From Candidatus Limnocylindria bacterium (GTDB lineage Bacteria > Chloroflexota > Limnocylindria > P2-11E): DNA of 63,748 bases. The position numbers were made by a program, and so were the translations under genes. Shown one piece after another: positions 9,225-50,893 of the stretch. Each line of letters begins with the position of its first letter. Positions within the stretch are counted from its first letter, which is position 1. The DNA lies in contig DATDEH010000056.1 in NCBI GenBank assembly GCA_036523395.1, forward strand, positions 1 through 63,748. Direction: 5' to 3'. The notes beneath the pieces are model-generated. The model had not been told where the DNA came from and did not search any database. It saw only the letters and a program-made list of their open reading frames with translations.

Positions 9225-9269
9225 AACCCCCCTAAAGGGTACGAAGTACACTCGACGAACAATTGAATA

Positions 9270-9356
9270 CGACGGGGGAGCGCCCACGGGGCGCTGAGAG
9301 TGCGGTGAACCGCAGACCCCAGAACCTGATCTGAGTAATGTCAGCGTAGGGAGTCG
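9270..9356 (+). promoter_or_regulatory. TPP riboswitch (THI element)
   Basis: The conserved THI-box strings are present in order: GGGGAGC, GCTGAGAG, GCAGACCCC, then GAACCTGATCTGAGTAATG and GCGTAGGGAG. The closing stem P1 pairs CGAC (9270-9273) with GTCG (9353-9356). This RNA binds thiamine pyrophosphate. It sits directly before an intrinsic terminator and the thiN-ykoEDC genes, so TPP would reduce read-through. Confidence 0.96.
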
Positions 9357-9375
9357 GAACGCGTGAGACCTCGCT

Positions 9376-47240: not shown

Positions 47241-47267
47241 TTAGCACTCTCCCATCGAGAGTGCTAA
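47241..47267 (-). promoter_or_regulatory. CIRCE operator
   Basis: TTAGCACTC (47241-47249), 9-nt spacer, GAGTGCTAA (47259-47267): an exact match to the CIRCE consensus bound by HrcA. It abuts the hrcA start codon, so it occupies nearly the whole 5' leader. Confidence 0.97.
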
Positions 47268-47810: not shown

Positions 47811-48193
47811 ACCGGCGTCGGGCTGATCAGCGCGCGGACGCGGCCGACAAGATCATCGAGCTCGAATGGCTTGGTGACGTAGTCGGCCGCGCCCAGCTCC
47901 GTCGCGTAGTTGCGCTCGGACAGGCCGAACATCGCGGTCACCACCACGACGGGCATCTTCACGAGACGGCCATCCGAACGCAGCTCGCGCAGCACCGAGA
48001 AGCCGTCGCGTCGCGGCATCATGAGGTCGAGGACCATGCACGAGGGCTCCAGCGAGTCCACGAGCCGCATCGCCTCGTCGCCGTCGCTCGCGAGCTTCGA
48101 GTCAAGGCCGTCGTCCCGCAGCGCTGTGACGATCACGTCGCCCAGAGCGGGATCGTCCTCGACCACCAGGACCAGAGGACGCTTTCGCGCCAC
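47807..48193 (-). CDS. single-domain response regulator (CheY/receiver type)
   Basis: A 128-aa receiver: VLVVEDDPALG with the acidic pair, phospho-acceptor in CMVLDLMMPRRDG, VVVVTAMFGLS and the conserved lysine in YVTKPFELDDL. No output domain is attached, so it should act through a partner. It shares one base with the stop of the Crp-family gene upstream, so the two are co-transcribed. No kinase is adjacent. Confidence 0.92.
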   Translation of the reverse strand: MARKRPLVLVVEDDPALGDVIVTALRDDGLDSKLASDGDEAMRLVDSLEPSCMVLDLMMPRRDGFSVLRELRSDGRLVKMPVVVVTAMFGLSERNYATELGAADYVTKPFELDDLVGRVRALISPTPV

Positions 48194-48870
48194 TAGACCC
48201 GGATCTCCTTCGCAAGCCGTTCGGGATCAACGATGACGATGTGGCGCCGGCGGATCCCGATGATCTCGCGCCGCTCGAGGTCCCCGAGCACACGGTTCAC
48301 CGACACGCGCGACGCGCCGATGAAGGCCGCCAGCTCGTCCTGCGTGAGCGTGAGCTCGAGCTTCGCGGTGCCGTCCGCCTGCGCGAGATCGAGCAGGTAC
48401 TTCGCGACCCGGCTCGGCACGTCCAGGAAGATGAGGTCCTCGACCCGATCCGACAGCCTGCGGATCGTCTTCGCGAGCGCATCGAGCACGACGCGGACCG
48501 ACGCCGGATGCGCCTCGAGGAACGCGAGGAAGTCGTCGCGCGCCAGAAGGGCGGCCCGGGTGTCCTCGAGCGCCGTCGCCGAGGCGGAGCGCGGGCTGCC
48601 GTCGAACAGCGCGAGCTCCCCGAAGAAGTCGCCGGTGCGCATGATCGAGACCAGCGCCTCCTGACCGAACTCGCCCGGGAGCGCGATCTTCACCGCTCCG
48701 GCCAGCACCACGTAGAGGTGCATCCCCGGATCGTCCTTACGGAAGAGCGCCTCGCCGCGTTTGAACGACCGCATGCGCATCCGCTCGGCAAGCTGCGCAA
48801 CTTCGGCATCGTCGAGCTTGGCGAAGAGCGGATAGCGCCGCAGGTGGTCCGGGAGACGTGTCTCCGGCAC
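48193..48870 (-). CDS. Crp/Fnr-family transcriptional regulator
   Basis: A 225-aa protein: cyclic-nucleotide-binding-type beta-roll (GEALFRKDDPGMHLYVVLAG, GDFFGELALFDGSPRSASA, close to the cAMP phosphate-binding cassette GE..L), a dimer helix and an HTH (LTQDELAAFIGASRVSVNRV). The cassette retains the GEL-x6-RSA pattern, so cAMP or cGMP binding is plausible. There are no FNR-type N-terminal cysteines. It is the first gene of a pair with the receiver protein. Confidence 0.93.
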   Translation of the reverse strand: MPETRLPDHLRRYPLFAKLDDAEVAQLAERMRMRSFKRGEALFRKDDPGMHLYVVLAGAVKIALPGEFGQEALVSIMRTGDFFGELALFDGSPRSASATALEDTRAALLARDDFLAFLEAHPASVRVVLDALAKTIRRLSDRVEDLIFLDVPSRVAKYLLDLAQADGTAKLELTLTQDELAAFIGASRVSVNRVLGDLERREIIGIRRRHIVIVDPERLAKEIRV

Positions 48871-48972: not shown

Positions 48973-49327
48973 ATGAGCGCTGCGCCACGCTGGCGGCTTG
49001 TCGGATGGTTGGGCCTTGTCCTTGTACTCGGTGGCCCCTGCGGCGCGTTCTTCCTCGCGTGCAACGGCCTTCCGCCGTTCCAGATCTCGGACGACTCCGG
49101 CCAGCAGTTCGGGCTAAAGCGCGGCGTGCCCGGACGGACTCAGGGTCTGGTTGATCCCCGTGACGTTCGAGAACCGCGCCACATATCCATCGGGCGACGG
49201 GTGAACGCTGGGCGAGCATCCTTGCTGTCACGCATCCCGTCGGCGCCCGCTCCGCCCACCTTACGTGCTATCGGATGGCCTACGTTGCGGCGGCTTTCGA
49301 TCTGTCGCCGTTCCTGTCCGGCCCTTG
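48973..49327 (+). pseudogene. decayed or frameshifted secreted/membrane protein gene
   Basis: Frame 1 from ATG 48973 gives a helix-bearing N-terminus (VGWLGLVLVLGGPCGAFFLA) and reads sensibly to about 49135. The protein-like sequence then continues in frame 2 (RVWLIPVTFENRATYPSGD, 49142 to about 49198) and then frame 3 (GERWASILAVTHPVGARSA and on to TGA 49325). Two same-direction shifts would restore a protein of about 118 aa. This could be a pseudogene or sequencing error. No family is recognised. Confidence 0.4.
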
Positions 49328-49352
49328 ACGGCCACTCCACAATCGACCGCCC

Positions 49353-50270
49353 ATGGACGGCGAGACCACGGTCCGCACCGGCGAGGCGTACGTCTCGGGC
49401 GCTCTCACAGCGCTCGAGGAGGGCGCACGCATGCGGCTCTTTTATGAGCTGCTGGCGGAGGTGGTGGAGTCGGTCGGCCTCCGCGCCTACCTTCCCCACC
49501 GCGTGACGGGTCCCGTGGCCGCCGCCCATTTGGAACCGCGTGCCGTATACGACATCGACCGCGCGCACGTGACCTCGGCACGCGTCGTCGTGGCGTATGC
49601 GGGCATCCCGTCCTTCGGCGTCGGCATCGAGGTCGAGCTCGCACGCGAGCACGCCGTGCCGGTCGTCCTCGTCGTCGAGCGCGAGCGGACGGTATCGCGC
49701 CTGCTGCTCGGCAACCCCGCGGTCGTCGAGGTCGTGCGCTTCGTAGACCTCGACGGACTCCGACGCGGGCTGGGCGCGGCCCTCGAGCGCATCGCGGCCA
49801 TCGCTCCGGGAGCCGCCCTCCCCGTCGTGTCGGACGATGTGGTCGTCCAGCGTTTCCTCGCATCGCTCGAGCAGGCGCGCCACCTTCCTGATGGCGAGAT
49901 CGCGGCGCTCCTTCGCATCGGAGAGCTGGACGGGGCGGCCGCATCGACGATCCGCGATGCCGTGGCGACCGGACGCCTGTTCGGCGCGGGCCTGCGCGAC
50001 CTCGTCGGCCGCCACGCGCTCCGCGGCGCCGACCTCGGCGTTTTCGTCCTTCACGACGTGCTCGAGCGTTCGCTCGCCGATACCGCGCGGGCGATCGGCC
50101 TCGATCCCCGCGCGACGAGAAAGCGCCTCGAGAACGCGCGCTCGCGCGTCGGCCTCGCGGCGGACGCGCCGGGCGCGGACATCGCACAATGGCTCGTGAC
50201 CGAGCTGATCGCCCCGCCGACGCGGGCGCTGCAGCTCCATCTCTTCAGTGGAGGGCACGACGCCGCATGA
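49353..50270 (+). CDS. nucleoside 2-deoxyribosyltransferase-like protein with C-terminal HTH-like region
   Basis: A 305-aa protein. Residues about 11-135 fit the nucleoside 2-deoxyribosyltransferase-like fold: AYVSGALTALEE, GLRAYLPHR, VYDIDRAHVTSARVVVAYAG and PSFGVGIEVELARE with a candidate catalytic Glu. The C-terminal half has no clear family, but SLADTARAIGLDPRATRKRL (about 245-264) resembles a sigma-type helix-turn-helix. This fold can cleave N-glycosidic bonds of nucleotides or NAD. The stop overlaps the ATG of a 35-aa basic peptide by ATGA. Metabolic or conflict/defence roles are both possible. Confidence 0.6.
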   Translation: MDGETTVRTGEAYVSGALTALEEGARMRLFYELLAEVVESVGLRAYLPHRVTGPVAAAHLEPRAVYDIDRAHVTSARVVVAYAGIPSFGVGIEVELAREHAVPVVLVVERERTVSRLLLGNPAVVEVVRFVDLDGLRRGLGAALERIAAIAPGAALPVVSDDVVVQRFLASLEQARHLPDGEIAALLRIGELDGAAASTIRDAVATGRLFGAGLRDLVGRHALRGADLGVFVLHDVLERSLADTARAIGLDPRATRKRLENARSRVGLAADAPGADIAQWLVTELIAPPTRALQLHLFSGGHDAA

Positions 50271-50374
50271 GCAAGGGGCAAAAGAAGCAGAAGACGACCG
50301 GCAAGCTGGGCTGGCGCAGCAAGAAGGCCAACCATGGGCGGAAGCCCGGGATGGGTCGCGGCAAGCGCAACTAG
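50267..50374 (+). CDS. 35-aa highly basic peptide, translationally coupled
   Basis: The ORF starts inside the ATGA stop overlap of the preceding gene. It is Lys/Arg/Gly-rich throughout (SKGQKKQKTTGKLGWRSKKA, then HGRKPGMGRGKRN) with no hydrophobic core. This looks like an RNA- or ribosome-binding tail-type peptide. It ends 22 nt before a strong bidirectional terminator, marking the operon end. Confidence 0.65.
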   Translation: MSKGQKKQKTTGKLGWRSKKANHGRKPGMGRGKRN

Positions 50375-50445: not shown

Positions 50446-50802
50446 CTAGCGGCGGCGCTTGCGTGCGGTGCTCTTACGCGCAGTCGACTTGCGGCCGGTG
50501 CTCTTTCGCGTCGCCTTGCGCGCTGTCGACTTGCGCTTGGTGCCTTTGCGCGCGGTGGTCTTCTTCTTGGCGGTGGTCTTCTTGCGACCGGTGCTCTTAC
50601 GAGCCGTCGTCTTCTTCCTCGCGGTCGTCTTCTTGCGGGCGGTGCTCTTCCGGCCGGCGCTGGGCTTCGAGGCGCCGCCCATCGAACCGCCACCCATCGA
50701 TGACGGTGGCGTTGGCGGTGTACCCGACGGCTGCGGTGCGGGCCAGATGGATCCAGGCTGCTTCTGCGATGACCAATCGTTACCGGTGTTCTCGTCCTGC
50801 AT
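50446..50802 (-). CDS. Lys/Arg-rich repeat protein, histone H1-like
   Basis: A 118-aa protein. A polar N-terminal part (QDENTGNDWSSQKQPG, Pro/Gly-rich to about residue 45) precedes a tail made of about ten short repeats such as KKTTARK, RKSTGRK and KSTARK. This resembles the DNA-compacting tails of bacterial H1-like and HupB-type proteins. The start at 50802 has GGGGAGG 6 nt upstream; longer starts at 50856 and 50880 have no SD. It may bind DNA or RNA in the nucleoid. Confidence 0.75.
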   Translation of the reverse strand: MQDENTGNDWSSQKQPGSIWPAPQPSGTPPTPPSSMGGGSMGGASKPSAGRKSTARKKTTARKKTTARKSTGRKKTTAKKKTTARKGTKRKSTARKATRKSTGRKSTARKSTARKRRR

Positions 50803-50893
50803 GAGGCCTCCCCAAATTTCTTTCGCGCTGGGAGAAGTGCTGTCTGTGCGTGTCATATCGCGTTCGGCACTTCGCCGCAAGCGCGTAGTCGTA

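Follow-up and report, generated by a model that had tools for sequence, protein, structure and literature searches.

A MilB-like HTH protein encoded upstream of a probable ribosomal protein bL37 in Chloroflexota

We investigated a pair of adjacent genes in a 63,748-nt stretch of DNA (hereafter, the window) from Candidatus Limnocylindria bacterium (phylum Chloroflexota). Based on its open reading frame (ORF), profile matches and predicted models, the first gene (49353..50270, + strand) encodes a 305-aa protein with a MilB/NDT-like domain and a helical HTH domain. The second (50267..50374, +) encodes a 35-aa basic peptide, which profiles and conservation identify as a probable ribosomal protein bL37. 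The explanation that we favor, with somewhat better than even confidence, is that the peptide is bL37 and that the upstream gene, in a shared operon with it, encodes a one-component regulator that binds, and perhaps hydrolyzes, a nucleotide. Such an operon would join two parts of different age, namely, bL37 and a lineage-specific regulator, and the gene pair probably serves ribosome housekeeping, with an unusual regulator placed upstream, rather than forming a conflict system.

The MilB-like and HTH domains of the 305-aa protein

The nearest solved relative of the 305-aa protein in a phmmer search of the PDB was the CMP N-glycosidase MilB (4jem, E = 5.2e-7); BlsM (5vto) matched at 2.9e-5, and both alignments span residues 29–149. 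Using 11 orthologues, AlphaFold2 produced a best full-length model with a mean pLDDT of 75.8 and a pTM of 0.51 (the other four of the five models: 60.9–66.1 mean pLDDT), whose top seven Foldseek matches were chains of MilB (E = 1e-5), BlsM and BcmB. VIA-align 2 superposed residues 8–159 of this model on 4jem_A over 146 residues (Z = 16.4, 2.5 Å). The predicted model therefore has the NDT fold by both Foldseek and VIA-align, and Pfam Nuc_deoxyrib_tr matched 8 of the 11 orthologues at E ≤ 1 (best 1.1e-3). An NDT-like N-terminal domain with a candidate catalytic Glu had been proposed in a preliminary description of this DNA, to be checked by structure prediction and fold search, and these results bear the proposal out.

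Within this domain (49374..49829, +), alignment and conservation place the counterparts of MilB E103, D78, S97 and G99 at E93, D69, S87 and G89. E93 and S87 were kept in all 18 orthologues and D69 and G89 in 17 of 18, counted over distinct readable genomes from 20 rows, two of which repeat genomes already counted. In one further observation, the larger gene of genome G005 (locus L017) is split across two frames and has a Lys at the position of D69, pointing to decay or a sequence error there. A passage in PMC4081090, which describes MilB as an N-glycosidase, gives the roles of the four MilB residues above and of Phe22, Arg23 and Glu62, together with the cytosine recognition motif F-L-(G/A)-(G/A)-P-F-X-X-L-(L/V/T). 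This motif is absent from the window protein, which reads Y-V-S-G-A-L-T-A-L at that place, as positioned by eye beyond the range aligned by phmmer. MilB Glu62 aligns with T52, and Phe22 and Arg23 correspond to L18 and T19 (by motif position, judged by eye outside the aligned range). CMP catalysis is doubtful because the base-contacting residues of MilB are not kept; from the conserved residues, a ribose-phosphate could apparently be accommodated in the site, with any base preference not fixed by them. Compared with the MilB and BlsM CMP N-glycosidases of the NDT superfamily, the window protein thus has the same fold over residues 8–159 and the E103/D78/S97/G99 equivalents, whereas it lacks counterparts of Phe22-Arg23 and Glu62 and has a fused helical HTH domain.

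The C-terminal half, previously considered to be of unknown family, carries a Sigma70_r4_2-type HTH: this Pfam family matched all 11 orthologues at E ≤ 1 (best 5e-8), and the window protein alone scored 19.4 bits, below the cut-off of 25.7. The profile places the HTH, which is sigma-70 region 4/LuxR-like, at residues of about 225–265, and a PDB profile search with the C-terminal half retrieved SigC, SigJ and CnrH at E = 0.03–0.13. A separate model of the C-terminal half (pLDDT 84.5, pTM 0.77) was all-helical and aligned with RcsB, EvgA and ECF sigma region 4 at Z ≤ 6.7, a level that VIA calls common among helical proteins, and Foldseek gave no match for it at E ≤ 0.001. Because the Z score was only middling and Foldseek gave no match, the HTH assignment is mainly profile-based, with the model lending it moderate support; to this extent, the HTH-like region of the preliminary description is upheld. 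The first three helices of the domain had no clear fold match, which is not evidence for a new fold. As delimited by profiles, the predicted model and alignment, the domain occupies 49824..50267 (+) and includes a tail, QWLVTELIAPPTRALQL (QWLVTELIAPPTRALQLxLF), that is invariant across the 11 aligned orthologue rows. The HTH at about 225–265 is thus shared by profile, and moderately by model, with ECF sigma region 4 and LuxR-type regulators (SigC 2o8x, SigJ 5xe7, RcsB 5w43), from which the window protein differs in its extra N-terminal helices and its conserved QWLVTELIAPP tail; unlike ECF sigma factors, it had no sigma region 2 match in Pfam.

In the window genome and 100 relatives, the 305-aa protein found matches at E ≤ 0.001 in 25 of 101 genomes. 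The window's own family accounted for 22 of these (22 of 28 family genomes), and the remaining three, from other families of the class, matched residues 201–291 only. A sample of 251 genomes from the phylum contained 14 that matched the full 305-aa profile at E ≤ 1e-6, comprising five from the window's family and nine others that matched within the NDT part only. The NDT-HTH gene was seen only in the window's family. Three genomes (L019–L021), of genera g7 and g8, have just the C-terminal half in front of the peptide gene, indicating that the HTH, not the enzyme fold, is kept longest.

The last observation bears on an unlikely but still serious alternative, in which the peptide is bL37 and the upstream protein acts simply as a nucleoside 5'-monophosphate N-glycosidase. 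In this view, its HTH would serve only for tethering or dimerization, and the operon with bL37 would have arisen by accident, through a common promoter. The conservation of the active-site Glu, Asp, Ser and Gly in 17–18 of 18 orthologues and the N-glycosidase activity of MilB itself (a passage in PMC4081090) speak for this alternative, as does the absence of the larger gene where the peptide persists. However, the genomes of L019–L021 retain the HTH half only, in front of the peptide, and the base-binding residues of MilB are not kept.

The basic peptide and its likeness to bL37

The window peptide, MSKGQKKQKTTGKLGWRSKKANHGRKPGMGRGKRN, has 13 Lys or Arg and no Asp or Glu among its 35 residues (+13, pI 12), and the family core reads KLxWRSKKANHGxKPxxG. 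Its profile was found in 26 of the 28 family genomes, in one copy per genome at E ≤ 0.01, and in one sister-family genome; beyond these, no match was accepted among the 151 class genomes (27 of 151 accepted). The family genomes without a match, G007 and G026, are 66% and 80% complete. A 28th match (G124), lying within a 181-aa frame, was discarded as due to chance. When 23 codons were compared across 26 genomes, 21 codon columns varied as against only five amino-acid columns (pN/pS 0.10, dN/dS about 0.06), meaning that the peptide is under purifying selection. This low pN/pS and the retention of both genes across the family (22 and 26 of 28 genomes) show that the 305-aa ORF and the peptide are not chance ORFs. 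At locus L013 (G025), the orthologous peptide reads R at the usual start codon (KDERGKGQ), which reflects either an alternative start or a sequence error.

Within the phylum, 148 of 301 genomes matched the peptide profile at E ≤ 0.5 and 16 were accepted, eight at E ≤ 1e-16 and eight as core-bearing sequences at 1.9e-6 to 3.2e-4. Eight phylum genomes outside the family and its sister carry short ORFs such as MVTNRKKQKHKLRWRSKKANHGKRPTHGRK and MASDKSANKRRLRWRSKKANHGTKPNHGK, and a match to a bL37 model in the phylum gave VSKKHDKRRQRRKKPANHGKRPLCGR; 14 weaker matches (L075–L088) contained no core by motif search. The accepted distribution within the phylum is therefore patchy. In a collection of 84,980 species, 440 pattern matches yielded 118 confirmed and 80 kept loci, in records titled Chloroflexi, Planctomycetota (with Scalindua), Omnitrophota, Hinthialibacteria, Tectomicrobia and others. 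At 11 peptide loci of several phyla, no shared neighbor stood out by eye.

In the ribosome of M. smegmatis, bL37 is a 24-aa protein in a pocket of H39, H40, the H41/H42 joint, H72 and H89, and the same passage in PMC5876184 states that it exists only in high G+C actinobacterial species. In C. acnes, it sits beneath the tip of 5S rRNA, according to a section of PMC10085706. NCBIfam has a planctomycete bL37 model, so its occurrence beyond Actinobacteria is partly known to curators. Our literature search found no paper pairing bL37 with Planctomycet-, and bL37 and Chloroflexi were not paired among the matches listed.

We searched a 21-row profile of peptides from several phyla, with no actinobacterial row and with locus L064 left out, against 177,635 PDB sequences. 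The seven matches at E ≤ 10 were mL102, a protein of the ciliate mitoribosomal large subunit (0.028), five bL37 chains (0.092–0.89) and a phospholipase (0.94), the last of which was discarded as chance; one of the five, 7sfr_v, is named only "peptide" but is nearly identical to bL37. A 13-row profile confined to Chloroflexota gave five matches, namely, four bL37 chains (0.76–3.2) and mL102 (1.3). The best bL37 E-value, 0.0035, came from a profile including L064, which had itself been found with a bL37 model, whereas the 13-row and 21-row profiles are free of it. Across the three profiles, the bL37 E-values are marginal (0.0035 to 3.2), and with the 21-row and L064-containing profiles the aligned region begins at the start codon and reaches residue 23 of the 24 in the bL37 chains. 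When the bL37 sequences of M. smegmatis, M. tuberculosis and C. acnes were shuffled 20,000 times each, the real score was reached by 2, 1 and 11 shuffles with the 21-row profile and by 13, 6 and 2 with the 13-row profile; because so few shuffles reach it, composition alone is not the explanation. This control was weak for the family-only profile (138, 115 and 92 of about 20,000), which found no bL37 in the PDB and a eukaryotic L18 fragment alone (E = 0.4), and the single peptide sequence found a designed protein alone (E = 9.5).

Against the curated models, the window peptide scored 11.7 bits for planctomycete bL37 (cut-off 40) and 7.0 bits for mycobacterial bL37 (cut-off 30), and since both NCBIfam cut-offs are missed, we call it a probable bL37, not a member. 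L064 reached 29.5 bits against the mycobacterial cut-off of 30. The two models matched 15 and 13 of 22 peptide members at E ≤ 1, and none of the members scored singly exceeded a bL37 cut-off save M. smegmatis bL37 itself. In a six-frame scan of the window's own genome with the planctomycete model, other stretches ranked first (best 15.2 bits) and the peptide was absent among the matches listed. At E ≤ 10, the same model matched 59 of 61 genomes and 8 of 14 controls, none above the cut-off, and a genome search with this model alone is not evidence because controls also match; we read loci L057–L066 among these matches and kept only L064. The window peptide resembles bL37 (5o60 chain 3; 8crx chain V; NF047428, NF047429) in size class, basic N-terminus and ANHGxxP core, but it has 35 instead of 24 residues, KLxWRS before KANHG and a GMGRGKRN tail, it lies far under both curated cut-offs, and its host belongs to Chloroflexota and is not actinobacterial.

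We regard as distinctly improbable the alternative that the peptide is a small protein that binds RNA or DNA outside the ribosome and has only a short basic motif in common with bL37. The similarity does rest on about 9–11 core residues, with marginal E-values (0.0035 to 3.2) and a patchy distribution. However, the alignments extend from the start codon over nearly the whole length of bL37 (to residue 23 of 24), and intermediate forms bridge the two within Chloroflexota. The peptide is very unlikely to represent a different small basic protein of the ribosome, for instance bTHX: the T. thermophilus protein is likewise short and K/R-rich (27 aa with an MGKG start, as confirmed in its PDB sequence), but it lacks ANHGxxP and scored 2.8 bits with the 21-row profile, a level reached by 877 of 19,997 shuffles as against 1–11 of 20,000 for bL37. 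In addition, no Thermus-type THX chain appeared in the PDB profile searches, and mycobacterial 7kgb_v, which has "THX" among its depositor names, is bL37 by sequence. We therefore rejected bTHX, given its score near shuffle level and its lack of the core, and retain bL37 as the probable identity of the peptide.

The preliminary description had suggested that the peptide could be an RNA-binding partner or a regulator. It is indeed adjacent, basic and probably RNA-binding, but it belongs to a separate and wider family resembling bL37. If it is the bL37 of this lineage, it would fold into the 23S/5S rRNA pocket as in the known cases. That pocket can be filled otherwise, since a section of PMC10618245 reports that an extension of uL30 occupies it in Borreliella. 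We considered uL30 as an extended substitute and found it in 43 of 46 class genomes, both with and without the peptide (presence only).

Residues 68–78 of Tetrahymena mL102 (6z1p chain AQ), the best PDB match of the multi-phylum profile, read KKANHGARPCS. According to a passage in PMC7326499, the mL102 C-terminus emerges between the central protuberance and the L7/L12 stalk and reaches the A-site tRNA. From this sequence, mL102 may hold a bL37 segment.

Locus layout, pairing and proposed regulation

The stop codon of the 305-aa ORF (TGA, 50268–50270) and the start codon of the peptide (ATG, 50267–50269) overlap by 4 nt (ATGA), and GGAGGG precedes the peptide ATG. This overlap, noted in the preliminary description, is real in the window but is not general: the spacing in 13 relatives ranges from −161 to +93 nt, with the exact 4-nt ATGA overlap in 3 of 13 (L123, L135 and L154), overlapping frames or gaps of ≤ 2 nt in 11 of 13 and gaps of 81 and 93 nt in the remaining two. 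A promoter-like stretch (49320..49352, +) was recognized by eye when the DNA 5' of the gene was compared between the window and 10 relatives. TTGAC is found by eye upstream of all 11 genes of the 305-aa type, and CAnnAT lies 9–10 nt 5' of the ATG in 9 of 11, with CATCGA instead in L123 and L135. Judging from these motifs, the 305-aa gene would have a near-leaderless start. Three loci without the larger gene (L107, L046 and L047) have a CACAAT stretch resembling that of the window a few dozen bases 5' of the peptide; this fits the loss of a dispensable regulator from in front of a needed gene, and other histories are possible.

The peptide gene lies downstream at the same locus in all 22 family genomes with the larger gene. 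The pair is therefore conserved in that direction, but the peptide is not confined to it. Four of the 26 peptide-bearing family genomes (G009, G017, G019 and G021) have no match to the larger protein, nor does the peptide-bearing sister-family genome G028. Among the 80 named peptide loci from the species collection, the HTH-half motif was present in 13, all in records titled Chloroflexi, and no trace of it was found in 67, up to 4 kb on each side. Since the peptide occurs without the other gene and resembles ribosomal bL37, the reading of the pair as an undescribed two-partner small system is mostly not supported.

By Pfam, the neighbors include a response regulator and a divergent Crp/Fnr-type regulator (48193..48870, −), the latter outside the proposed mechanism. 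Other nearby ORFs are presumably grpE, hrcA, hemW and lepA, and the neighborhood looks like housekeeping genes. The locus gave no match in PADLOC, in 72,556 plasmid records or in 50,697 phage records (E ≤ 1e-3 for both), and the suggested NAD-targeting conflict context is not borne out. A two-component conflict or toxin–antitoxin-like system, with an NDT-fold NAD/nucleotide hydrolase and the basic peptide as its regulator, is barely credible and was rejected: the NDT fold is real and the start–stop overlap occurs in the window and 3 of 13 relatives (overlap or gap ≤ 2 nt in 11 of 13), but the peptide is distributed independently, with the HTH half untraceable in 67 of 80 peptide loci and the larger gene missing in 4 of 26 peptide-bearing family genomes, and the PADLOC, plasmid and phage searches were negative.

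For the favored reading, bL37 with a nucleotide-responsive regulator, we infer the following sequence of events. The MilB-like domain would bind, and perhaps hydrolyze, a nucleoside 5'-monophosphate, and the sigma-70 region 4/LuxR-like HTH would bind DNA, probably its own promoter. If the two genes are co-transcribed, expression of the bL37 operon would then follow the nucleotide signal. The peptide itself would bind the ribosome, where known bL37 contacts H89, beside the peptidyl transferase center. Placed 5' of bL37, an HTH regulator that carries a nucleotide site of the NDT type would connect ribosome composition with nucleotide pools in an unusual way. The most far-reaching version is quite unlikely as a whole: that the regulator reads or destroys a nucleoside monophosphate, sets the amount of bL37 and so tunes the pocket behind the peptidyl transferase center, and that bL37 is old, multi-phylum and possibly present inside ciliate mitochondrial mL102.

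The broadest interest lies in the wide peptide family. Should the peptide prove to be bL37, this protein, described from actinobacterial ribosomes, would have a patchy occurrence in Chloroflexota, Planctomycetota, Omnitrophota and further groups; at only 26–37 aa, it easily escapes notice. The known bL37 pocket is in contact with H89 and 5S rRNA close to the peptidyl transferase center, so the reach of this family would bear on ribosome evolution and antibiotic sites.

Other features of the window and of related loci

A convergent gene at 50446–50880 (−) encodes a 144-aa protein with a repetitive tail rich in Lys, Thr, Ala and Arg, which had a sub-threshold match to histone H1-like HC2 (21.3 of 40 bits). 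At 47241–47267, just 5' of the hrcA-like ORF, lies a perfect inverted repeat, TTAGCACTC-N9-GAGTGCTAA, the only exact copy found in the genome, which we take to be a CIRCE-type element. A CIRCE-type inverted repeat is also located about 75 nt 5' of the peptide gene in the sister-family genome G028 (L054, about 1426–1452), hinting at heat-shock control of either the peptide gene or a divergent gene. Finally, a TPP riboswitch was detected at 9264–9369 of the window (69.8 bits).
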